The translations under genes were made by a program, and so were the position numbers. Of a stretch of 64,000 nt of DNA, positions 36,540 to 63,994 are shown one piece after another. The stretch lies in assembly GCF_910592395.1 (NCBI RefSeq), contig NC_088324.1:1986001-2050000 (forward strand). The letters are read 5' to 3'. Below the pieces are notes generated by a model. That model searched no databases and was not told the DNA's origin. It saw only the letters and a program-made list of their open reading frames with translations. Source of the stretch: Lineus longissimus. Lineage: Eukaryota; Nemertea; Pilidiophora; Heteronemertea; Lineidae. Within the stretch, counting starts at the first letter, position 1. Every line of letters begins with the position of its first letter.

Positions 36540-36839
36540 TCATATGCACATGTGTACATTTCCACGTGCTTTCATGTACGCAGTTTTACTGATGTCTTTG
36601 CATCGACGTATATATGGCGTAAATCCGATTGTCTCAGCCAATATACGTCTATGGTTCATTCGTCTTCCTTGAAATGATATGCACACAACACGGATCGAGT
36701 TTTGCACAGGAACAAAATTCGGTTTATCTGCTCTCACAAATTCCGTCCATTTGGCTGATCTTACGTCATCATCTTTTGGCCATCGAAAACGTTCCTCTGT
36801 TGACGGGCGACAATTCAAGGCTGAACATTGCCGAGGCAT
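36540..36839 (-). pseudogene. THAP-domain N-terminus, damaged
   Basis: On the minus strand MPRQCSALNC, then FRWPKDDDVRSAKWTEFVRA has the start, first cysteine pair, proline and tryptophan of a THAP zinc finger. The second half should contain C-x2-H-F but reads VVCISFQ, so the zinc-binding histidine is lost or shifted. THAP domains form the N-terminus of Kolobok and P-type transposases. No transposase follows. Relic. Confidence 0.55.
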
Positions 36840-37771: not shown

Positions 37772-38575
37772 ATGGACGGGCTAGAGGGAGAGGGCAGCAA
37801 CAAGCAAACAGAGGCAGGGAGAGGAAGAGGACAGCAGCAAGGACAAGGACAAGGGGGAGCAGTTGTTGACCCCCCTGTAAATTGGACAAACCAAGTTCCA
37901 GAACCCAGAGTGCTTCCCTTCACTTCCAAACAAGGAGTGGATATTGGACTTGGCTATGATGCTGATAAATGTGAATTTCTTCTTTTCATGCTAGGGGACA
38001 ATTTCTTTGAACTCTTGGCAGTAAAACGGTACCCACCTGCTGTTCCAAACCCTGATGAACCCTACTTGACATCACATGGTACTTGGCAGCCAACCGATGC
38101 TGAGGAAATGAAAGCTTTTTTAGCTGTAAACATTTTGATGGGAATCAGTAAGTCACCAGAATATGCTGACTACTGGTCTACAGATACTGCTCTTAGAAAT
38201 GAATTCATTTCCACGGTTATGACAAAGAATCGCTTTGAACACATTTGCCAGTTTCTTCACTGTTGTAAACCAAGTGATGAAGATGCTAACGACATGCTAG
38301 CCAAGTGCAGACCGCTTATCACTGTCCTGGGGGAACAGTTTCCAAAAGCGTTTGTTGCTGGTGAGCATTTGTCATTGGATGAGGCAATGGTGAAGTTCAA
38401 TGGCCTTGTCTGGAAACAATACATGAAAAAAATAGCATCGCAAAGCGAGCATAACCCCAATGGAGTGGCTAGTTTGCATATGGAAATTAAAATTGTGGAA
38501 ACAGGTCACGTGTTAATGGCGGCCCCAAGTAGACAAGAATTCGATGGTGAACATGTGGTAAACAAAGACGAATAA
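37772..38575 (+). pseudogene. piggyBac transposase, truncated after first catalytic region
   Basis: A 267-codon frame reads: glutamine/glycine-rich N-terminus (1-40), then LPFTSKQGVDIGLGY, AFLAVNILMGISKSPEYADY, FISTVMTKNRFEHICQFLHC, and FVAGEHLSLDEAMVKFNGLV containing the first catalytic aspartate of the DDE_Tnp_1_7 fold. After this the usual QYMPKKPIKWG-like block is reduced to KQYMKKIASQSEHNPNG and the frame ends in VNKDE. The remaining catalytic aspartates and the C-terminal cysteine domain are absent, about half the usual length. No TTAA-flanked ends were identified for this copy. Confidence 0.8.
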
Positions 38576-38699: not shown

Positions 38700-39862
38700 T
38701 TGGCAGAAAAAGCTACCAAAGCACTGAATGAACTGACTCACTGTTCTGTGCATGGCATTTCTATTGTGGATGCATTGCTGGATCGTGCATTGGATTATTT
38801 CGATGAAGATAGTCAGAGCAGCAACGAATCTGATGATAATTCAAGTGATCTTGATGATGAGGGCCCAGTTCTTGACAGTCTCAACCTACCAGACAACCCT
38901 GACTACGGGCAAGTAATGAACGAATTGGCCGCTGCTGAACAAGAAAGCCAGGTTGCTCAAGAAGATGATGATGATGATGATGATGATGAAGATGCTGGTG
39001 AAGGTCAGAGTGCTGGTATGCAGTCGGCCCTACCATCGTTGTTGACAGGGCTGAGGCAGTTGTAAATAGAGTTGCTGATACGTTGGTGGACCGTGATGCT
39101 GTTGAGGAACGACAGCGTATTGTTGACTTCAGTTGCAAATGCAAGGACTATGAGACGGGCAGGTGCATTAGGCAGTTTACGCCAGATTATATCTTACTTT
39201 TACGTATGAACTTGATTTCTGTAACAGACGGAGAGAAAGAAATGTACATTCTTGGGAAGATAAGCTACACGATCAATCCCTCTGAATCGACTCAATGCTC
39301 AAAAAGGAAGACACAGAAAGAGAGGAAACGCTTCCGCACAGTCTTCATGGTTGAGAAGAAGATAGTTTGTCGGACTTCATTCAGGTTCATGCACTGGTAA
39401 GTGTTCTTGCATTCAATTCATACTGTCCTCGTATCTTTAATACATGCCTAACCTTTCAGGTGCAGTTAATAAAGACATTGTATTTTAGTGTTTTCTTTTC
39501 AGCTTTGGTAATAGCAGACTAGACAAACTAATCAAAGGGTATGCTGCTGGTGAGGTTACACCACTGATAAAGCATGCAGGTGGCAGATTAGAAAACGCGA
39601 ACTACCTGACCTAGACGACGTTCAACGTGTTGTTAGCTTCCTCGACAACTATGCTGAAGCCCATGCTATGGTGCTCCCTGGACGCGTCCCAGGGTTCAAG
39701 AGGGATAACATCAAACTCTTACCCTCCCATGAAACCAGGAAGTCGATTTGGCAGAAGTACAAAGCTGATGGAAACGTCAGGCGAGTTCATTCTGTCTTAC
39801 TTCAGGGTACTTGTCTTAGCATTTTTTTTTCTCCAGTCAAATGCAGGATATTAAAGACCTAG
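38700..39862 (+). pseudogene. DUF7869-family-like protein, N-terminal portion
   Basis: An acidic block (38700-39065) with an Asp/Glu run is followed, in a shifted frame, by VDFSCKCKDYETGRCIRQFT, a helical YILLLRMNLISVTDGEKEMY and KIVCRTSFRFMHW ending at a GTAAGT donor (39400). After a 110-bp intron (acceptor about 39501) come CFGNSRLDKLIKGYAAGEVT and, after another shift, VQRVVSFLDNYAEAHAMVLP then RKSIWQKYKADGNVRRVHSV. The order of cysteine motif, charged region and PGR motif is what precedes the region preserved at 15611 in this family. Stops and shifts show it is dead. It ends near 39862 with no catalytic part. Confidence 0.5.
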
Positions 39863-40126
39863 ACTGGTGACAGATTTCTAACAGTGAATTCTTGGCGAAT
39901 TGAAAAATGAACACTGTATAAAACACCGCATTGTTGTCATTCATCCAATAAAGTAATGTTATTGCAATAAAAACATTCTTTCAATGCGGCATCGATCGGT
40001 CCCACCCGAACGCGATAACTAGCCAGGTTGAAAATAGGTCATATGCAAATCAAGTCGGACAAAGGTCAAGTGACGTATGCGGAGGAATCTCCCAATTCGA
40101 CCTAGTCTCGATCAAGTGCCAACATC

Positions 40127-41341
40127 ATGGAAGACGACAGCTTCAGCAGCGATTCATCATCAGATTTATTGGATTATTCAGCATCAGACAGCGATGGATC
40201 AGAATTATTTTTTGATGAAGATGATCAAGCGAGACTGGACGAAAGCGTTGATCAGAATGAAGCACGGATTCTGCCTTATATGTACGAGCCCGAGCCGACT
40301 GAAGTGGACGCTGGTCAACCGGCAGTGATTGCAGCCGCAATGGAACCTGTGCCGGAGATCGACTTTTCCGTCTTAGAAAATTGGTAAGTCACCACATTAT
40401 CTTACGGAAGTAGGCTCTCTCTTGGCAGGGAATGAGCTGATGAGAATATTAGTCAAGTGTCAACCTTACCATAGATATCAGAATCGGTGCAATTTTCTCG
40501 ACTACTGCAATATGTTTACAAATGTACATCCAGTATACAAGGCAGTGTCAGTGAGTAGTCAAAACGTCCATGTCCAGCTGTGCATCAATCAGAATGACCA
40601 ACAAAAGAAAATATTTGTTTTCTCCAAAGTGTTTTATCGACACTTTCTTTCATATAGTGCTCATGAACTAAAAAACATGTTTTGAATAAATATGATAACA
40701 ATAATTGAAATGCATGATTCATAAAGATGATTGACAGGACCGAAATTATACATTACAAGTAAGTTGCTTGTTGGAGTCTATTATATTACTCCAAGCATGT
40801 CGAAAATGTAAGTTGGCCATACAAGGCCTAATTTAAACAGTATTGGTACCATATAGTTAGTACTGGCTCTAGTACGCATCAACCAGAAATCATCACATTA
40901 TTCTAATTCTCAATGTTCTATCTTACAGGTGCACCTGCGACAACTGCCAAGTTCTACCAAAAAGATCAGAGTGCATTTGCTGCCAAAAGATTGACAGGTA
41001 CCAGGCAAAATTGGTGGATACTGCCGAGGGTGAAGAGAAGGCAAGGTGCATCACTGAACATCGGGGTTTCGATCCAGTCTGCCTCAATGAATTTGTACTG
41101 GCGACTGCTTGGCTCCAGTACACCCAACAGTACGGAAAGAAGGCGTACACTGGACCAAGGCACAAACGTTTACGCCATGTTGCATACAGACAGTTGGTTT
41201 GTTGGTGCTACGGATTTGTGGGCAAGGACATTCGCGTGATGATTCCATCAAGTGCAGTTTCAAAAATGTGCATTCTTTCCTCCACCAGAGTTGGAGGAAA
41301 ATGCTCAATTCGTTGGTTTCATGGATGTAGATGAGGCTTAG
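40127..41341 (+). pseudogene. P2RX7_C-like (P2X7 ballast-domain) gene, copy 1
   Basis: Exon 1 (40127-40383) is acidic and serine-rich (SDSSSDLLDYSASDSDGS) and ends IDFSVLENW across a GTAAGT donor. Exon 2 (from 40929) gives CTCDNCQVLPKRSECICCQK, CITEHRGFDPVCLNEFVLAT and the stretch from HVAYRQLVCWCYGFVGKDIR to VMIPSSAV, the zinc-cysteine and W/R-rich pattern of the P2X7 C-terminal domain. A one-base shift near 41270 moves the end (FPPPELEENAQFVGFMDVDE, stop 41339-41341) out of frame, and one C is replaced (IPSS for IPSC). No P2X channel part is present. The gene parallels the intact copy at 62086-63149. Confidence 0.75.
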
Positions 41342-41718
41342 ATTGACTGATTCATGACAATACATTTTTACAAGTATACTTTTCTCTTTATCTTGACAAA
41401 ATCATAGTCATATTTACAAAGATTCCATTGCCAAATCATAGACTGGAATACATTATTAATCAAAACAGACTTTAATCTTTAAAATTACTCTGCTGTCTGG
41501 TCAAAAATGTTTATGATAGATTATTGTGTTTACAGATAATAAATATTCATCAGAGTTTCAGACATATTTTTGAACTATTTTTGAGTGCCACTTGGCAATG
41601 CTTGATTTAATTGAAATTACATGTCTAGACGTTTATAGACAAAAGAGACTACAAATGAGGATACACAACAAAGCGTAATCAGAACAACAACAGGATTTGG
41701 TTACTTCATACATACAAT

Positions 41719-43560
41719 TTGTGTAACTATCCAGAAAATAGAAAGAGTCCTGATTGCACACAAGATAGCATTACTTCTGAAAGCGTGCATGAACGAGGTA
41801 CTCCGATACTGCCTGCTGTTTACTTTCGGGGCGCTCATACGATGCACACAGTACAAACAGTGCAAACGTGTGGTAATATGGTAAATGAAAAGCATTCTTC
41901 TCCGACAACCCGTGGAGTGCAAACCACTCAAGGCCGCCGTCCTTTTGATATAAATAAAAGGATAGCATTTACTTTGAGGCAGATGGGGTGTGGGCCTGCA
42001 GAATTGGATATGTTCGCTACATACAACAACATGCCCTCATCTATTCACCATAAGTCATTACTGCGGCATGTCACTCAAATTTCCAAGGATATGGAAGTAT
42101 ACATCAGTGACTTCCTACGTTCTCAAGCAGTGATTATTCGGAAAATATATGAGAGCCTGGATGATGATAATTTAGAGAAAGACGTTTTGGACATTTCTGT
42201 TTCCTATGATGGAACGTGGCAGAGGAGGGGTGGTGGTGGACATGTGTCCTACTACGGGATAGGATTTGTAATTGAAATATTTCCTGGCTTGGCGATTGAC
42301 TTCTATGTCATGAGTCAATACTGTTATGGTTGTGTTGGTGCTCCAGACAGACACACCAGAGTACGAAGTGTTGTGGGCTACCCATGGACCCCAGTGCCAA
42401 AAAAATTACAGTGGTTCAAGTGGGAACATGGAAGTCCATGGTGCTCTAGTGCTCTGACGCAGGTCAGTCGACAGATTTCATTAACGTTACACAACAATGA
42501 TTGGCGATGGAGATTCAGCATCATCGAAAAATCATGTCTCGAAGCGCATGTTTACGGCACTATCGAACTTCAAAAAGAAACAACCAGCTGGGGAAAAGAT
42601 TGGCGGTCGCGGCGGACTCACTGATAAACCTATCAAAAGACTGTCAAATTATTATGGTCGTGCGATCAAGGATAATCCCGATTCAGTGGAGAAAATGAAG
42701 GCGGCAATATGGGCATCTCTGTTCCACACAACCAGCACTGATGATGAGCCACATCATCAGAGGTGTCCAAAGGGTGAAAATAGCTGGTGCTTTTACAACA
42801 GGGCACTACCCTCCATTCTAATGAGCCACCTCCCTCTCACAAGGGACATGCCAACATTAGACACGAAATTGCACAAAAGATGAAGGATATTTATGTGCGC
42901 TTATCCAACGAAGAGCTCCTTAGCAGGTGTACACATGGTCGTACATCTAACCCCAGCCAATGAACGCTTGAATGGCAAGGTTTGGGAGAAGGTTCCTAAG
43001 GAGACCTTCAGGTCTAAGGTCCATGTTGATATGGCAGCTGCCTTAGCCATTCAAGAATGCACTTGAAATTCCTTCGGGGCAGCCTGCCAAGGATGCTCTG
43101 GTGAAACAAGACGGTGTTCGAAAGCGAAAGAGTCGGACTAAAATATCTGAAAAGGCAGTAAAGCGTAGAAAAGCTCGGATATTCAAAAAAGCTTGTGGTG
43201 TGGACCAGGATAGGAACAAAGAGGGGCAAACCTATGGGCCTGGGTTGCTAGATGCCTTGGAGAACACTCCTGGGGCACAGTCTAGTGAAAGTGAGAGTAA
43301 TAATGACACTCATGTTGAGACTGCTAGTGACACCCGCCGGAAGTCCCGGCCTGGTAGGGGTCCCCAACCCAAAAATAGCAGAAAAAAAGTAGACAATAAT
43401 AGCAGCTCGCTAATTATAAACATTTGTGTGATGGTATTCTTGTTATTAGTAACAATTCATAACTTTCTAACCACATCTTTTTCCACTGTGGTACAGGATA
43501 TTCATAAATCAAAGTTTGACGGCCATTTTCTCAAAATGACTTTTTTTTCAAAAGCGACAA
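41719..43560 (+). pseudogene. Mutator-like transposase domain protein, frameshifted
   Basis: The first frame contains KRIAFTLRQMGCGPAELDMF, LDISVSYDGTWQRRGGGGHV with the first catalytic aspartate, and GLAIDFYVMSQYCYGC, the signature of the animal Mutator-like transposase domain (Pfam Mutator, PF20700). A shift near 42495 moves to the frame with MIGDGDSASSKNHVSKRMF (second aspartate), RLSNYYGRAIKDNPDSVEKM and RCPKGENSWCFYNRAL. Another frame follows with EELLSRCTHGRTSNP, and after one more shift a basic C-terminus (43101-43490; KRKSRTKISEKAVKRRKARI). The N-terminus is absent. With three or more shifts it is inactive. It is 380 bp downstream of a P2RX7_C-like gene in the same orientation. Confidence 0.8.
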
Positions 43561-53451: not shown

Positions 53452-54036
53452 TGAAATGGCCAGGGCCATTGTGCTCACCTCACGTGGAGGAAAGATGGAT
53501 AAAGAGCATGGTATTGTGTCATGTAGTGTTAGGTTTGATGTAGGTCCAAGCAATTACAATTTCCCCAAAATGGCCAATTTACAGTATATTCGACCTCTGT
53601 GACCTTGAAAAGTAGGTCAAATCAAAGAAGACCCGGGTGACACATTGAATGGTTGTTAGAATTAGATGTACCTATGATATAAAATTGGTGCCAATCGGGC
53701 AAGTCATTACTAGGAATAATGGCATTTTGAAGAATTTAGGATTTGGCCCCCTCCCTGGAGGCCAAACGTCAAATCAGATCGCACCAAACTTCAGTACCTG
53801 AGATCATCTGACCAAGGGGTACATGTGTACTTAATTTGTGATCAATAGTCATTGCAGTTAAGAAACGTGCCATAGTTACAGCCTGACGGCGAATTTACGC
53901 CATTTGACCTCTGTGACCTTGACAAGAAGGTCAAATTAAAAACCTGTGTGACATATACTGTATGGTGGTTAGATGTACCCATGATATCGAATTGGTGGCA
54001 ATCGGGCAAGAAGTTAAGGAATAATCACATTTTTAA
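53452..54036 (+). mobile_element. HINE/pearl-like repeat, copy C, left part
   Basis: Matches copies A and B from TGAAATGGCCAGGGCC to CACATTTTTAA, then stops at the TTAA used by Kolobok. The remainder continues at 63467. It sits inside the gag start of a BEL-like element. Confidence 0.9.
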
Positions 54037-54630
54037 AGGATAGCTCCTGGAATAAATCGTTGGCAGCCTTTTTGAACGAAACAATGGAAATATATTAAAT
54101 GAGTATTCCTCTTTACCACAAACCTTTTGAAAGTGGAAGAAATATAATAGTTCAGGAAGAAAAATTGATATTAATAGTGCCTTTTTTACTGACATGGACG
54201 ACACCATTTTGAGTCAAATTTCCCTCGGTGATGACGCGGTGTGTGCAATGGCAGTGATTGGCTGAAATTCCGAAGCATATTATGGGCTTGTCACTGCTTT
54301 TCGCGCGTGCGCAGTGTGTGAATCCATGTCAATATCCGTTTCTTCACGTGTGGTGAAAATCTGGAAAATCCTTGATCAGCCAAAACAACATCATCTGCAA
54401 GATTCGTCTTTGATTTTTTCCAACTTAGATCTGCTGCATTGCCTAACTGATTTCACTATTTCTGTCTTAAATCATTCATAGTATCTCCTCGACCTATAAT
54501 TGTGCAACTATTGCATGTTTTATTGTTGTTTTATTTTGTACTATATACTGCATTTGCAAGTACTGTACAAATCATTCTAATTTCGTTTTATTTGGACATT
54601 CGCGTAATATATTGATTGCTTGAATGCAAA

Positions 54631-57600
54631 ATGCCTCGGTGCATGGTCCCAGGATGTGGGAATATGTCCGTTGTGACGAGTGGAATTCGATTCAAACAGT
54701 GGCCACTGAAAGATGAAGAACTTTCTAGGAAATGGTTGCATGTGATTCGGCGGGCTGACCTAGACAAAAGAAAGAAAACATTCACAAAGAATGACCGAGT
54801 TTGCGAGCTACACTTCGAGAAAGACTGTTTTGAATCTGAAGGTGAGCTGAAGGCCAAAGCATTTGGAAGGAAGACCCCGAAAACTTGGATTAGAGCTGAC
54901 GCAGTGCCCACCCTTTGCAAGCCTGGCCAGTTCCCCGTGCCCTCGCCCACCCCGTCCTCATCATCGAATTCCGCCAACGGTGCAAGTGGGAGTGCCTTGA
55001 TTTCGACTCCTGCATCATCAGTCAAGGTTAGAACTCCGAAACGACCAAGAAGTGTTGACAGGATTCAAAGGCTAACCCAAAAAAATGTAAGTAGCCTAGT
55101 GGTGTAGTAGCCCTAGGAGTATAATATAGGAAGGCCGAGCCATACGCCTACGGCCTACCGCTAGGCCTAGGCCTAAAACGAATATGACCTAGGCCTAGCT
55201 CTAAACGAAGGCAGTAGAGTAAGCCCTAGACCTTCAGAATATGCAGTCTCTCGACTCTAGGCTCAGCCCAGCATGACCAGCAAAACCATGGAAATCTAAA
55301 CCGACCTTTTCCTTGCCAAAAGCACTATAATAATATAAAAGCCACTACCAGTACCACAACCCCCCTACTTTTGAGTCTGTGGCATAGCCTGTGTGCCTTA
55401 GTTATATGAATCATACCCCGACAGACATGGGGCTTGGCATGTTGCGGGCTACCCTCACCGCTCCATCAGCCACTCAAGTATATACTCTTACTGTGTATTT
55501 ACATTGATTTACTAATAGTCCTGCTCTACTTCCAGATTGTACAGTCATTACTTCAAGACAGCCCCAGCAAAGCAAGTGAAGTCAGCAACACCCCAACGGT
55601 TGGGAAGAAAAGGAGAACAAGAGGCCCAAGGGCCTGGCGCTCAGCTGAGTTGTTGCTGCGTTGTTCGTATATATTACATTACTCGTCAAACTCTACTAAA
55701 CTAAGGACTCAAAGCCTAAGGATATTAGCTTCTGGATGTGCAACAGTGAATTACGGTAGACTGGCGCAATCTACTTCAAGCAAGCTCCACCCTTGCAATG
55801 TGTGCGCAAACAGATAACCTAACCTATATTGGACCATCAATTCTACACACAGCAACATGATTTATCCTCAGCTGTTACCATGATGATGATGATGATGATC
55901 CTTTTCGCAAATTGGTCGTCTTCTGTCTTTCTTCCATACTTCAGTGCCACCGGATGTAGTCTGCCCTTGTGGAGGGATCCTTTCAGCACCGGGACACAAG
56001 AATCCATGCGAATTGAATCACATGGAGAGACTAGCCCAATCACCCGCTTTTGGCTGGGTAGAAATGGGTAAATCTCGCAGACTGGACCTTAAACTCTACT
56101 GCCGACGTGTGAGGCCGGTCTGACAGATGAGTAAGTGGGGTCCACCTAATGCAGAAGGCACCAGTTTCCCTAACTAAAAGGGTAACATTAACAAAATGCT
56201 CTACCCAACTCTATTATTGCCTAAAGGCCTGTGTACAATAGTAAAATATTAGCAACATTTTTACATTTCCAGTTGCAACAAATGTTGCAAAAATGTTGCG
56301 TAGTCTTACAACATGTTGTAAAATTGTTGCAAATTAAATGCAATGCAATTCTTTGTTGCATGTTGTAAAAATGTTGCAAACTCTTCAGCCAATCAGAAAT
56401 AGGATTTGCGTCATGTGATCTACCGGAGTTCATGTGACTTGAACAAGAAGCAGGTATAGCAACTCTCAAGTGAGTGTCTTGCTTCGTAGGGTGATGAAAC
56501 CTTTTCTAGAAGTTTTTGTGTGACGGCTTGTCAGTCAGCCGCAACTCCTTTAGGCTGCGTATCCATAGGCTGTTCCGTGCCCTGCACAACATTCCCTTTT
56601 TACCGCCTGGCGCGCCACACGGACAATGAACCTTCGTTGGTGTTATTGATCGTTCCCATAGGTTATGCCGTATCACATTGCGGGCATATATGCACTGTGG
56701 ATTGGGAATATAGGCCCATATTGGGATTGAACATGTCCATTCTTTTGCGAGTGAACAACACGGAAGCAATGTCTGAGGCGAAATTAATTCAAGAGGTTCA
56801 TCAACGGGAACTACTCTGGGATCCCGAAACTGATGATTATCATAACAAGCACGAACCTGTAATTTGTTGCTTAAAAGTCAGGTTTTATATACATGTACAT
56901 GTCAATTTGATGTTGCAAGTGAAAATACAAGTTACTTGTATTTTCATTTTCAATATTCATAAGAAATTGTCTTCTGAAATAATGACAGCGTGCGGATAAA
57001 CGCGATTGACCGCTGCGAAATGAGGACTACAAAGGCCTACATGACCAAAAAGGAATATCCAATGGAGACTCGGGGCATAGTGCCAGGTCACAAGGCTGTT
57101 ACGCCATAACGCCACACTACACAAGGGCATACCCTATGGATACGCGGCCTTAACAGGCAGTGGTATGCCCCATCATCCACCCTCATTTTGATCCAGGGCC
57201 TGGTCCATATTCTCTTTGGTTATTTCGCCGCCTCTTCCGTCTCTCAACAATGACAGCTAAAATTGCTGCAGAAGCACTCAAAACACATCTTCTCTCCTTG
57301 GAATCATCCATTTTCCCTCCAAAATACCTATTTCCCTTTGTTCCCACTAAAAAGTTTGCAACAATTTACCAACATGTTGTAAAAATGTTGCTAATTTGTT
57401 GCAATTTTGTTGCTAGTGAACACAGGGCCTTGAAGGGCTTGTTGCAAAATTGTTGTAAAAATGTTGGTAAAATGTTGGTAAAATGTTGGTAAAATGTTGG
57501 TAAAATGTTGGTAAAATGTTGGTAAAATGTTGCTAATATTTTACTAGTGTACACCCTGCTTAAGTCAAGTGAAACTCTTAACAAACCTTAGCAGAATGCC

Positions 57601-60600
57601 ACCATTGAAATGTTGATAATAATGATAGCAAGTAAAAACTTTAAACAGATAGACTTGATTTTTTTAACCAACTGCCACATGCGGTTTTCTTTATTTAGTA
57701 AATTTTGAGGTAAGTATTACAGAATGAAATACTTGAATACTAGAATTGCCTGGCTCTTCTGATGATTGCACTGGTGAACACCGAAGTCGATGGGATGTGC
57801 AAAGTCATAGCTCGATCCTCTCTCTTGGTCATCTTTGAGATGTAGTCACCAAATATGTTCAAATGCAGCTGCAGATCATTCCTGTCCTGCAAAACATGAT
57901 GAGGAGATAACATTTTAATTTTGATAGAATAGGTAAGCTAGCCAAGTTTTATATCAAATACAAGGCCAACAACAACTGATAAGGCGCTAGGGCCGAATGA
58001 TCAAGGAAGTTCATTGATATGATTGGGAATACATTGTGATAAGAGTGATGAATCGGCCCCGTTTGAAGCATTGTGCTATGTACAGTGTGCAAGTGTCAGT
58101 GTGTATCATATCGCATTTACTGTTTGTTGACATTTCAAATCGCTGGCGTCGATCCTCAATTACACTGTTTATGTACATTGGCAACCTTACCCGATGATAT
58201 CAGAACGATGTTTATTATTGTCTTGTTTATTCACATTAGTTCTGCTATGTGACAAGAGTTATTTGTTGAGAAATCCATGATTTAAAGCCGGACTTTGACA
58301 TCGTTTCTCAGACCAACCAAGCTGCATTTCGCAGATCGTTTTTCAACGATCGTCGACGAACTATTTCAAATTAATCACATCCAATTAAACAATCCAAGCC
58401 TTCCCTAATGTCATCAACATGCAATAACACAAGCAGCCAAATATTGTCGCCTATGAAATTGTGAATTTAATGAGAACTTACCTCTGAATTGACAGAACGC
58501 GATCTATTCCATAGCATGGTCTCCTTACGTCTGAACTGCGCAGACTCGAGACGTGACGTTCGCTGCATGTGTGATTGGACGTGGGATAACTCGCGTGAAA
58601 TTTAAAATGCTCTTCTTGGGGGGTGCTCACTAAATTGCGCCAGTAACACCACCTGGTGAGAAATTCATGAACTACGCCTATTGATAATGAAAGAGAAAGC
58701 TTTGCTCTATAAAATTAGATTTGATTCATGATCCCCAACTGAGAAATCAGCTGCTGGAAAAGTTTTTGGAAAATTTCGCTTGGTGCCACCTAGTGGCCAA
58801 ACCGCTCATCCTGCCGGACCCACATTTGGTCTATTCAGGAGTCCTGAAGGGTCTCAACGCCTCAGAGGGAAAATCTATCGCCTATCCGCCATAGTTTTGA
58901 AACGTGCCTGTTTAACGGACAGACAGACACACAGACAGACAGACAGACACACAGGCAGACACACAGACAGACAGACAGACAGACACACAGACAGACAGAC
59001 AGATAGACACACAGACAGACAGACAGACACTCATTCTACCATTTACTCATATGAATAGCTCAGCTTTTCAGCTGAGCTAAAAAATGATACCGAGCCACCC
59101 ACGCCACCAGATGCCGATGTCATCCCCACCCCACCACCAGTGAAGCATGATGTTGATACCCAAACAGACTGGGATATGGCATTCATGCAGAGGATAGATG
59201 GCATGTTGTATGGCTCAGTGGAGGTCATACAGCATGATCATTCCTATAGTAAGGTAATTGTAAAATGAATCCTAACTTCTAAAGATTTGGATGTAACAAT
59301 AGAAATACAATAACCATGGTAATTCATGAAATGAATCATGTTTACCTATTACAAGTACTGTATACATTAGCAGTAAGCATACAGCATACAATGAGGCAAA
59401 TGCAGAATGTCCTACTGTACCCCAAATGATGAATATACTATTACTAAAGAAAAAAACAATCCATTTATTGATTCAAATAATGGTTAAAAGTATACGTGTT
59501 CAGTAATAAAAACATTCAAAAGCTTTGATGTACTAGTAGTAATGTGACATTTCCCACTTTTCAGGCTAATCAACCGGATCAAGATTCCACTCTCCGACCA
59601 AGATCAAGCAGTGAAGGTACAAGAGAAGCAGACTTGCAACCTCCTCAGCCTAGTCCTGATATCAGCTCAGCAGATGTGCTACAATCATGCCAGGTTAGTT
59701 ATTTTCAAAGACGCTCATTGTCACCAATGCTGCTTCCTAGCTTTGAGGAATAGGAATTTACTTACCATTACCAACAAACAGTGTGCATGTGATGTATGTG
59801 TAGGTGGTTGGCTTGTTATACAAGCATTATTTTCTGGTACATGTACATTACGGTATAATGGAGCTAAATGTGTTCATCAATACCCCCCCCCCCCCCCGAA
59901 TGTGAGTGATCGCTTTGCTCTTGATATTGTCTCTAACTAAAACCAAAAATTCTGTTCCAGCTTCTGCCTGGAGGAGGAAGTAATTTACATGTAGACGATG
60001 CACTAGCTGCTACCTCAGAGTCTGATGTTACCAGTGACGACTCTGACTTCGAGCTTCCTACCACAGCGAGGAAGGTGGATGATTGTGCAAAACACTTTGA
60101 TATATTAGACGAGGACCAATTTTCCAATAGTGCTGGTGATTACATTGAGCAGGAGAAATTCATTGTGTACGAGGGTAAACTATTAGATATATTCCTATCT
60201 TATGGCACTTGTCCAGACTGTGGCCAGAAGTTTGGAACTATTTGTAAGAATCAAATTCAGCGTGGCTCTTTAGTCACATTTCGTTTGGTTTGCAAAAACC
60301 ACCATGTCTTCTACTGGCATTCCCAGCCTGTTTGCAACAAGGCTCCAGTTGGGAACATTTCATTGGCTGCCTCAATTCTCTTCACTGGAAATACTTTCAC
60401 CTCTGTAATGAAATTTGCCAAACTAATGAACATCCGCTTTATTACAAAATCAACGTTTCATGGCAAACAGAATTTGTACCTCTTTCCTGTGGTAGATGAA
60501 GCTTGGAGAGAGCACAGGTCCAAGCTTGTTCAGGCCCTGCAGGACAGGTCAATTACTGTCATTGGCGATGGACGGTGTGACTCACCTGGACACAGTGCCA

Positions 60601-61586
60601 AGTATGGTACGTATACCGTTATGGGGGCCGCCAATGAGAAGGTGATTGATTTCAGTTTGAAACAGGTTAGACCTGATTTGAAGAGCTGCAACATGGAGAA
60701 AGAGGGCCTCATCGACTGCCTTGACAGCTTAAAACATTCTAAAATTACAGTTGGAGTTTTGGCTACTGACCGCCACCCCCAGATTTCAAAGATGATGCGA
60801 ACTAATTACAAAGAAATTAACCACCAGTATGACGTCTGGCACTTTGCCAAAAGCATTTCAAAAAAACTGAACAAAGCTGTCAAGAAAGCCGCTTGTCGCC
60901 CTCTTGGTCCATGGATCAAGGCTATCATTGTTCACCTCTGGTTTTCAGCTGCATCTTGTGAGGGTGACCCTGTGTTGTTGAAAGAGATATGGACATCCAT
61001 CCTGTATCATGTCCAGGATATCCATGAATGGGGGGACAAAACCATGTTTCATGCTTGTAACCATGCCCCCCTCACAGACGAAGAGTCTAGAAAAAAGAAA
61101 TGGCTTGAACCAGACTCTCCTTCACTAAAAGCATTGGCAACTGTTGTCAATGACAAGAGATTACTGGCAGATGTTGGTAAACTGAGTAGTTTCTGCCACA
61201 CAGGAATACTAGAAGTGTATCATTCAGAGATGATAAAATACATGCCAAAGAGCAGGCATTTTTCTTACAAGGGCATAGTTGCAAGGACCCAGCTAGTTGC
61301 ATTGGATCACAATGAACATTCTGAGCGCAAACAGATCACCAACAAGTCAGGGAAGCCACGATATTACCACAGTTGTCCCAAGGGACGGGACCATTGGGTT
61401 GCAAAAAATGTAAAAGAGCACAAGGATTATGCTTACCTCCCAAAAATTATGACAACTGTGGTTGAACATGTCATGTCTGGCACAAAACCCACACCGGTGT
61501 TGGAGCCAATCCTTCCACAGAGAATAACCTCTGTTGAGAGACCTGATCTTGAAGAGTCGCTCCGATACTCTAGGTTCATCAAATGA
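54631..61586 (+). CDS. Kolobok transposase (THAP + DDE), exon 2 split by insertion
   Basis: Exons 54631-55086, 55536-55617 joined to 59084-59253, 59565-59693 and 59961-61586 are all phase 0 and total about 820 codons. Exon 1 has a THAP finger (MPRCMVPGC ... KWLHVIRRADLD ... VCELHFEKDCF ... AVPTL). Exons 2-3 are serine/proline-rich. Exon 4 starts acidic, then shows a CPDCGQKFGTIC zinc motif, VIGDGRCDSPGHSAKYGTYT (first Asp), VLATDRHPQISKMM (second Asp), QYDVWHFAKSISKKLNKAV, and TGILEVYHSEMIKYMPKSRH (Glu), then HSERKQITNKSG. This is the Kolobok order. The protein would bind the ends through THAP and cut at TTAA in the nucleus. The only lesion is the 3.47-kb element at 55618-59083. No stop or shift is seen. 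Confidence 0.85.
56231..57554. mobile_element. TIR element with GTGTACACTAG ends (copy 2)
   Basis: Same element as 48564-49874, inverted. One end reads GTGTACAATAG (one substitution). Here the flanks are AGG on both sides when read on the minus strand (GCAGG before, AGGCC after), which slightly favours a 3-bp duplication. The tandem GGTAAAATGTT units at 57468-57530 differ in number from copy 1. Confidence 0.65.
56553..57149. mobile_element. 597-bp Harbinger-type MITE (copy 2)
   Basis: Inverted copy of 48936-49532, same length, flanked by TTA at 56550-56552 and 57150-57152 (complement of TAA). It sits inside the GTGTACACTAG element and is the innermost layer of the nest. Confidence 0.8.
58917..59034. 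repeat. ACAG/ACACAG microsatellite
   Basis: About 115 bp of imperfect GACAGACAGACACACA units directly before the 3' hairpin of HINE-like element 2. It occupies the position of the GAC/ACG microsatellite in HINE copies A-C. The frame through it (58780-59058) is not a gene. Confidence 0.9.
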
Positions 61587-61589
61587 ACG

Positions 61590-62085
61590 AAGGTGGGAAT
61601 TGAACAGACATGACATGTAGGGTGGGTTGGGTTGGGGGGAATTTTTGAAGCTAAAAAACATATTTTATTGGTCTTTCAGGCCATCGAATAATGAAATGAT
61701 TTAGTCTCTTTTGTTAAACTTTGAATAAGAATGCTTTATTGAATTTGTATAACATCAAGTGTATAACTTTCTGGGGCCACTTCTTGTTTGGACCCTTTCA
61801 TAAATAGATTTATAAAAAATATTTAAATGCATTTTTCTAAAGTTTTTTTACAGGCCCTTGTCTCATGGTTGGCCCGGGTTAGAGATCAATTACAGTAAGG
61901 GGATGCCACCCAGGAGAGATTACAGTGCATAGTATTCTAAAAGTGAAATATTTCTGAGGTAACCGTCTTCTCAACTGGGAGTCAATTGAAAAATGTCCTT
62001 GATTGCACTATGTCCTCTTCTTTAGATAAAATGTGTCAGCAGTTTTTGGACTAGGATACCAAATAAATAGTGAGCGTGAAGAAAT
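61590..62085. other. Intergenic stretch between the two Kolobok genes
   Basis: Contains the 3' ends of two convergent genes. AATAAG/AATAAA-like signals for the transposase lie near 61724. No gene or repeat is recognised. Confidence 0.45.
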
Positions 62086-63149
62086 TCAGTCTGACTGGTC
62101 AAGGTCATCCATATTGGCTTCAAGAAAGCCAACATATTGGCCATTTGCAGCTGGGAATACCTCCCGAATACGCTTCACCACACAACTTGGGATGACACGA
62201 CGAATTTTCCGGCCGAGGAACCCATGGGCCCAAAAGATCATTTGACGGTAGGCCCCATGCCTGAGGCACCTGAAAGAAGAAAATTCAACTCCAATAATAT
62301 TTATTTTTTTATCAGGAACCTATTCAGTTCATCTTGTACACTAGTATTATATTTACATTTACCATGAATGTTCAATAAAATTGCTTGTTATTCACATAAA
62401 ATCAGTTCTTATCTTATGCCAGTTGCTTCTCATTACTGAGGCCCCCATGTAAAAAGTGATGGGGTGGGGGTTAGAGAAGAAGTTATTCTCTAGCAATCCT
62501 CGAGAAGAATGACTTAACTGTGAAAGTTATGCCATTGCCAAATTTTGTTGAAGCAAAGAGAAATTAAATTTTTTTCGCCTGTTATGGGAAAAAATAAAAT
62601 TGTTCATTTCTTTTGACTTTAATTTTGCTACAGCCCATGACTCTGAGCCCCTTACTTGTTTGTCGGAGTGTTGTCATCCCTCCTCTCGATATAGGCGTGA
62701 TGTAGCCGGGCCATGGTTGTTTCGATCACTGCCCTGTTCAGGCAGACGGGGACGAAGTCCTGGTGGTCTGTGATGCATTCCATCAAAACGTCCCCACTGT
62801 CTGGGTCCTCAAACTTGGCTGCCACTACATCCTGATCATGGCAGCACATGCACTCAATATGTGTAGCCATAATATCACAGTGTGTGCATTTGCACCACTC
62901 CTCAACATTGAGGGTGGTCCGGTCCTCATCGGCGACCCCATCCACGTCCTCATTTCGGCCATCAACATCGGGTCCAGCTGCATCTTCAACAGCTTGAGCC
63001 ATAGCGGCAAGCTCCCCCTCTTCATATTCTGGCTCAAACTGGTAGCCCTGTACACTTACATTTCCCCCTATATCCAAATCTTCATAACTCCCGCTGCTCA
63101 TCGAAGTGTCACTGCTGTCAACATAGTTTTCATCATCCGAATCCGACAT
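62086..63149 (-). CDS. P2RX7_C-like protein carried by Kolobok, intact
   Basis: Minus-strand exon 1 (63149-62656) joins exon 2 (62269-62086) at a GTAAGG donor and CTTTCAG acceptor in phase 2, giving 225 residues without a break. Residues 1-90 are acidic (MSDSDDENYVDSSDTSMSSG, then EPEYEEGELAAMAQAVEDAA). Then comes the P2X7 C-terminal pattern: EEWCKCTHCDIMATHIECMC, CITDHQDFVPVCLNRAVIET, HGAYRQMIFWAHGFLGRKIR and RVIPSCVVKRIREVFP, ending YVGFLEANMDDLDQSD. In P2X7 this cytoplasmic ballast domain binds zinc and guanine nucleotide. Here there is no channel, so the role is unknown. It is convergent with the transposase gene and lies inside the TIRs. An upstream methionine (63176) is less likely than 63149. 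Confidence 0.85.
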
Positions 63150-63466
63150 GATTACAATACAATAAAACGATCTCAAAATATCAATCAGCTGACGGCTATT
63201 GTACGAATCCTATTGTACTGACATGCGGTGAATTGCACCCGTGACGTCACGATTCTCCGGTTTTCGAGGAGAGATCGCGAAAAAAGTGAGAAAATGGCGC
63301 CCTCCATGAACTCTGTGTTTAGTGGATTAAAAACACCTTTATTGGTACAAACGCAAATTTTTGTGCGATATACAGTCCTATATTGGAATAATAATGATAT
63401 ACGGAATATGCAGGTGTGTTAGTTTTCCCGATTATCGCTATAGTGATTTATTCCAGGAGCTATCCT

Positions 63467-63994
63467 TTAAGGTTTTTGGATTTTGCCCCCTGGTGGTCAA
63501 GTGGTGAATCATATTGGACCAAACTTCGGTCCCTGAGATCACCTGACTAAGGGGTGAATGTGTACCAAATTTGGTATCAATAGTCATTGCAGTTTAGAAA
63601 CGTGCCATCGTTACATCCTAACGGCCAATTTACACCATTTGACCTCTTGTGACCTTGAAAAGGAGGTCAAATCAAAAACCCGGAGGATATATGATGCACC
63701 TTTGCTAGAAGTACCTACCATATTTTTTTCAAAATTTCCCGACTACTATTAAGGGAGATATTGCATATTTTCACTTTTAACGTTTGGCCCCCTGGTGGCC
63801 AAACTATGAAACGAATCGGACCGAAACTTGGTCTCCAAGGTGTCATTACATAAGGGTACATGTGTACCAAGTTTCAACTCAATAGCTCTAACAGTTACGA
63901 AACGTGCCCTGCTAACGGACGACGGACGACGACGAGGGACGACGGACGCCACGGTATGGGATAAGCTCACCTCTGCTAAGAGGTGAGCTAAAAA
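63467..63994 (+). mobile_element. HINE/pearl-like repeat, copy C, right part
   Basis: Resumes after the right TTAA with GGTTTTTGGATTTTGCCCCC and continues through the third core unit, a short GAC/ACG tract and the hairpin AGCTCACCTCT/AGAGGTGAGCT with AAAA. It completes the copy begun at 53452. The microsatellite is much shorter than in A and B. Only a few bases of the right flank are in the window, so the host gag cannot be followed. Confidence 0.9.

Follow-up and report, generated by a model that had tools for sequence, protein, structure and literature searches.

A probable KolX accessory gene carrying the P2X7 ballast domain inside a Kolobok transposon of Lineus longissimus

Kojima and Bao reported in 2022 that Kolobok elements of the Kol0 type encode an accessory protein, KolX, which resembles the ballast region of P2X7 including its conserved cysteines, and the relevant passages of that paper derive P2X7 from KolX fused to a P2X4-like gene and regard Nanor as a likely domesticated KolX (PMC9587614). 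The hallmarks given there for Kolobok are a TTAA target-site duplication, 5'-RR ... YY-3' termini and a DDD/E transposase with a C/DxxH signature. KolobokP, from the same source, is also a Kolobok with a second gene, in this case one coding for a His-Me finger nuclease, and is further marked by long terminal direct repeats. In the literature searched, the word KolX occurs in PMC9587614 alone. Rump et al. (2020) traced the ballast (ZCD) domain across animals, and the corresponding parts of their paper give fewer than ten genes per species without large families, in disagreement with an earlier note on the DNA analysed here, which had called stand-alone copies reported as expanded. Nanor and other ZCD proteins described there are, like KolX, short stand-alone ballast-domain proteins found in many animals, and two markers linked to ballast-domain genes from sponge to mollusc, arthropod and echinoderm are taken as ancestral synteny (PMC7016195). 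The main text of PMC7016195 contains no word starting with 'transpos'.

The central idea followed up here, a ballast domain serving as an accessory gene of Kolobok, is therefore not new, having been in print since 2022 (PMC9587614). The present analysis amounts to an independent whole-genome check of the proposal, made in 2022, that a transposon accessory gene gave rise to the tail domain of P2X7. Possibly new are the uniformly convergent layout of the two genes, the invariance of three of the five GDP-contact residues and an N-terminal Yx[F/Y]EP motif; the relevant passages of PMC9587614 make no mention of the layout or the motif, which its supplements might describe.

The Kolobok element of the window and its KolX gene

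The window, a stretch of 64,000 nucleotides from Lineus longissimus (NC_088324.1, positions 1,986,001 to 2,050,000), contains one Kolobok element running from TIR to TIR (Table 1). Its TIR, AGGATAGCTCCTGGAATAAATC, is the same at both ends (22/22 bases) with TTAA outside each, and the KolX gene which it encloses lies tail to tail with the THAP-DDE transposase, KolX being read from the minus and the transposase ORF from the plus strand. Both the enclosure by perfect Kolobok TIRs and the opposite orientation had been claimed in the earlier note and hold. Because the 3.46-kb insert interrupts exon 2, a full transposase is impossible from the window copy unless the insert is spliced out, and this copy cannot be autonomous. 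The insert (about 55618–59079), which the earlier note had overlooked along with the second KolX copy described below, carries GTTGGTAAAAT units together with a simple CAGA repeat close to its end.

Table 1. Features of the Kolobok element and of neighbouring open reading frames, in window coordinates
Feature	Position	Strand	Remarks
Kolobok element, TIR to TIR	54037–63466		9430 bp including nested insertion
Target-site duplication TTAA, left	54033–54036		
Target-site duplication TTAA, right	63467–63470		
Left terminal inverted repeat (TIR), 22 bp	54037–54058	+	
Right terminal inverted repeat (TIR), 22 bp	63445–63466	-	
Transposase exon 1, THAP domain	54631–55086	+	Pfam THAP 57.2 bits; limits from C16 model
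Transposase exon 2, split by nested insertion	55536–59253	+	C16 model
Nested insertion, 3.46 kb, in transposase exon 2	about 55618–59079		
Transposase exon 3	59565–59693	+	limits by likeness to C16
Transposase exon 4, catalytic, DVWH signature	59961–61586	+	Pfam PF20700 44.1 bits, E 1.8e-11
KolX exon 2	62086–62269	-	RHxAYRQ ... PSC ... IR part of ballast domain
KolX exon 1	62656–63149	-	acidic N-terminus with GYQFEP, first cysteine motifs
piggyBac-like ORF	37772–38575		PF13843, 100.1 bits; just before second KolX copy
Mutator-like ORF	41719–42624		

With respect to the published hallmarks, the transposase matches PF20700 and shows DVWH, recognised by eye in the ORF, as a C/DxxH signature of a DDD/E transposase. 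All five complete copies of the family end in AG...CT, conforming to 5'-RR ... YY-3', and four of the five are flanked by TTAA on both sides, the C11 copy having TTAA and TCAA. TTAA sites, AG...CT ends and DVWH fit Kolobok as characterised in the corresponding part of PMC9587614. The Kol0 elements with KolX described there likewise combine two genes, a ballast-like accessory protein, TTAA sites and 5'-RR ends, and a second protein with ballast similarity was found here in Pfam and PDB comparisons. We file the window element and its relatives as further, putative Kol0-type families in one genome. A His-Me finger nuclease was not found as second gene of the window element (Pfam, E ≤ 0.1).

The KolX gene occupies positions 62086–63149 on the minus strand, and its two exons encode a product of 225 aa. 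They are separated by a GT-AG intron of 386 bp in phase 2, and splicing yields an uninterrupted frame of 225 codons followed by a stop, in line with the intact frame and in-phase splice sites that had been noticed earlier. Residues 77–213 match P2RX7_C (Pfam PF20478) with 71.2 bits (E 1.4e-19) against a curated cut-off of 23.5, which substantiates the domain identity proposed in the earlier note. Since exon 1 by itself scores just 16.8 bits, the spliced product is required for this match. No other Pfam domain was found in the 225-aa product at E ≤ 0.1, nor a P2X channel domain. Among PDB sequences, only four of P2X7 matched the product at E ≤ 0.001 (best E 5.5e-7), sharpening to E 9.5e-10 with a profile built from 11 KolX sequences of the Lineus longissimus genome.

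By profile, KolX contains the same domain as the P2X7 ballast (PF20478; PDB 6u9v, 9e3m, 9e3q, 8tr5), whereas the channel part of P2X7 has no equivalent in KolX. Eight cysteines are invariant in all 11 KolX sequences (C86, C88, C91, C102, C103, C125, C136 and C194), together with R168, H169, Y172, R173, Q174, G181, G184, R188, P192, V196, R200 and G212. At the zinc site of P2RX7_C, the CxCxxC and PSC motifs align with P2X7, which in the alignment lacks a cysteine counterpart of the invariant C136. Going by the residue list given in PMC7016195, R546, H547 and R578 of the P2X7 GDP site align with KolX R168, H169 and R200, while the GDP-contact residues R574 and K583 are unmatched, leaving three of five contacts invariant in KolX.

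The N-terminus of KolX is acidic, serine-rich and otherwise variable, and carries the motif Yx[F/Y]EP, mostly as PYx[F/Y]EP and in the window copy as GYQFEP. The motif was found upstream of the domain at 15 of 18 distinct loci (17 of 20 scan entries, two loci being counted twice) and in nine of 11 families by our own grouping, and once among 20 scans of the opposite strand as control. It is present in the N-terminal frames of L071, L073 and L075 and absent upstream of the domain in L042, L050 and L077. We infer that the upstream motif frames are spliced to the domain.

Copies, families and gene layout across the genome

A DNA search of the 391-Mb genome yielded 39 matches. Copies complete from TIR to TIR are the window element and those designated C16 (5968 bp), C8 (6255 bp), C13 (5952 bp) and C11 (5779 bp); their TIRs are identical (22/22 bases in 5/5), and KolX lies between them in all five. 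A sixth, truncated copy (C3) keeps KolX in a form broken by 2-bp and 12-bp insertions, and a search of this copy did not find the KolX-side TIR. The expectation of the earlier note that other copies would carry the gene was thus borne out. At C17:1.58 Mb there is a further, partial copy. Four copies (window, C16, C13 and C11) have an open KolX frame; in the C8 copy 273 bp from the 5' end of KolX are duplicated and the KolX start sits at the duplication junction. In-frame stops interrupt the transposase ORF of C8 and of C11, and that of C13 lies in pieces. Both genes are open in the C16 copy, with a transposase model of 822 aa, whose splice sites were assigned by eye, and a KolX of 225 aa.

Of the 39 matches, 31 are short, extending over no more than about 200 bp at the KolX 5' end (window 62946–63149). 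The six of these that were examined (L034, L035, L037, L038, L039, L041) have the two subterminal regions of the element in common; in three of them both TIRs are still visible, and L034 measures 953 bp with TTAA on both sides. These six are internally deleted derivatives without the KolX gene in which the first KolX codons are kept as end sequence.

Beyond the window family, we merged a protein search (150 of 292 candidates scored) with a Pfam P2RX7_C search, which gave at least 96 matches, all above the cut-off (150 of 187 candidates scored). Removal of short derivatives, i.e. matches confined to about the first 68 KolX residues, left 110 domain loci. With the window transposase as query, at least 78 merged transposase loci were obtained with 85 of 515 candidates scored, and three small hits lying inside loci already listed were omitted from the pairing count. 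A Kolobok transposase lies within 5 kb of 27 of the 110 domain loci, seven of these belonging to the window family, and all 27 pairs are convergent. Uniform random placement (200 rounds) gave a mean of 0.5 pairs and a maximum of 5. Because transposons cluster in genomes, uniform placement is a lenient control, yet this leniency does not account for the one-sided orientation.

Fetched DNA contributed six further convergent pairs (L042, L044, L045, L047, L050, L077), with transposase matches near the first five at E 5e-9 to 4e-6. In total, a Kolobok transposase is located next to at least 33 of the 110 domain loci, in convergent orientation each time (33 of 33); this number is a lower bound since the search covered 85 of the 515 candidates. 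At the same coverage, no Kolobok transposase was found for the other 77 loci. When ten other-family loci were inspected with 1.5-kb flanks, a transposase was present at seven, and L036, L040 and L046 had none in these flanks. Regarding the earlier proposal that Kolobok activity explains the expansion of the domain, element activity consequently accounts for a good part of it, given the loci tail to tail with a transposase. A search with PF20700 (117 matches, by eye mostly far from KolX loci) was kept out of these counts. It includes sixteen transposase ORFs of 612–746 aa at C13:10108365-10224771, all on the plus strand and mostly about 4 kb apart, an arrangement that resembles a tandem array formed by a different transposase lineage.

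KolX is carried by several distinct Kolobok families, with one layout in every readable pair. L075 and L076, which are the same loci as L047 and L049, respectively, represent a second family with perfect AGTCCACAATTCAAGC ends, TTAA and KolX inside. L071 and L072 have imperfect inverted ends, and the homology between them stops at most a few bases from TTAA; L073 and L074 have TTAA at both ends without a clear TIR. In one class, with transposases 38–45% identical to that of the window, the domain itself is interrupted by the KolX intron, as in the window, a position read in L067–L069 and deduced elsewhere from split hits; in the other class, with 29–33% identity, the intron seems to precede the first cysteines. 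The identity of KolX to its window counterpart correlates with that of the transposase (Spearman 0.79, p 1e-4; 18 of 20 other-family pairs), C2:12837586 and C9:8307115 being omitted and the higher identity used where a locus had two. Since KolX identities stem from different exons in each class and the loci are related, this correlation can be regarded as a rough sign of joint descent only.

Selection and the possible role of KolX

In comparisons between families, silent sites approach saturation (dS 1.3–2.0 where computable), dN/dS ranges from 0.16 to 0.60 and 20 alignment columns are invariant over 11 KolX sequences, eight of them cysteine, so that conservation of the domain extends beyond the window family. 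Within this family, the constraint across copies which the earlier note had made a test of its reading did not appear: the ballast part shows one silent and 16 replacement changes (pN/pS 4.25), i.e. no purifying selection, and whole-gene dN/dS against the window copy is 1.03 for C16, 1.83 for C8, 1.03 for C13, 0.47 for C11 and 0.81 for C3. Group A (L051–L055) has nine silent and eight replacement changes (pN/pS 0.22, p 0.003), and four other groups gave 0.40, 0.46, 0.71 and 1.44, none significant. Counting all sites, variation is 6/266 in the exon 1 ballast part versus 31/386 in the intron (p 0.0016), and 18/450 for both ballast parts together versus the same intron (p 0.017). Constraint on KolX is thus clear in the long term and invisible at the codon level among recent copies, all these numbers being small. 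Missing codon constraint in recent copies would be expected where inserted copies drift and selection works on the lineage that is passed on.

We consider it likely that the gene is KolX, an accessory gene of a Kol0-type Kolobok, and that it acts as a co-factor of the transposase. The THAP-DDE transposase would move the element, while KolX would travel as second gene, read from the opposite end towards the transposase, and serve as a small partner of it. Its cysteine-rich ballast fold may be zinc-bound by analogy with P2X7 and could, via the invariant RH...R residues, bind a phosphate-bearing ligand, either nucleotide or DNA, and the acidic N-terminus with Yx[F/Y]EP may be a docking site for the transposase or for a host factor. 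With both its genes open, the C16 copy would allow the role of the ballast domain before its takeover by an ion channel to be asked directly.

The main alternative, which we hold to be possible if doubtful, is a role of KolX in control or in evasion of silencing instead of catalysis, so that KolX would counter silencing or tune the level of transposase and transposition would not depend on it. An acidic, serine-rich N-terminus with a short conserved motif would suit contact with a host protein, and convergent genes could affect each other's transcripts; however, the joint variation of KolX and transposase suits a transposase partner at least as well.

As to the origin of the domain, it could have been an ancient host gene first, captured by Kolobok, with P2X7 and Nanor arising from host copies. 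The ancestral synteny of the two linked markers, as presented in the sections of PMC7016195 concerned, speaks for an old host gene and disfavours a simple transposon-first history. We nevertheless consider the host-first order unlikely, with the reverse direction being argued in PMC9587614, in the part dealing with it, from the wide spread of Kol0, and with at least 33 of 110 loci in the Lineus longissimus genome adjoining a Kolobok transposase.

That KolX is a mere passenger, captured without benefit to the element, would agree with the changes in the ballast part of the window family, but is improbable in view of the 20 invariant columns, the low pN/pS of group A and the retention of this one layout by several families whose ends differ. 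A more specific version of the co-factor reading, which we judge very improbable, makes KolX a guanine-nucleotide sensor: RH...R would bind GDP/GTP as in P2X7, Yx[F/Y]EP would dock the transposase and movement would follow the nucleotide state. If this were true, the P2X7 channel would have inherited a transposon's nucleotide sensor. Finally, an ordinary host gene family lying near Kolobok insertions by chance, for which the 77 loci without a transposase at 85 of 515 scored candidates could be cited, deserves next to no credence against 27 near pairs, all convergent, where 0.5 are expected, and is refuted for the window family by the five copies in which perfect TIRs and TTAA enclose the gene.

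A second KolX copy and its neighbours in the window

The window contains another KolX gene at about 40127–41334, truncated and degraded at the end of its domain, with a P2RX7_C match of 31.8 bits for 41011–41334. Its predicted structure, computed without alignment, had a mean pLDDT of 47 and was set aside. A THAP-like ORF at 36540–36839 on the minus strand scores 14.6 bits, under the Pfam cut-off of 23.9. The second copy sits in a 2.0-kb unit (39851–41853), 97% identical on C6 (L040), which starts at TTAA and ends where the Mutator-like match starts. The copy was also considered together with the piggyBac-like and Mutator-like ORFs as a single element; since L040 shares 39851–41853 only and the Mutator match starts just past it, the three look like neighbours instead.
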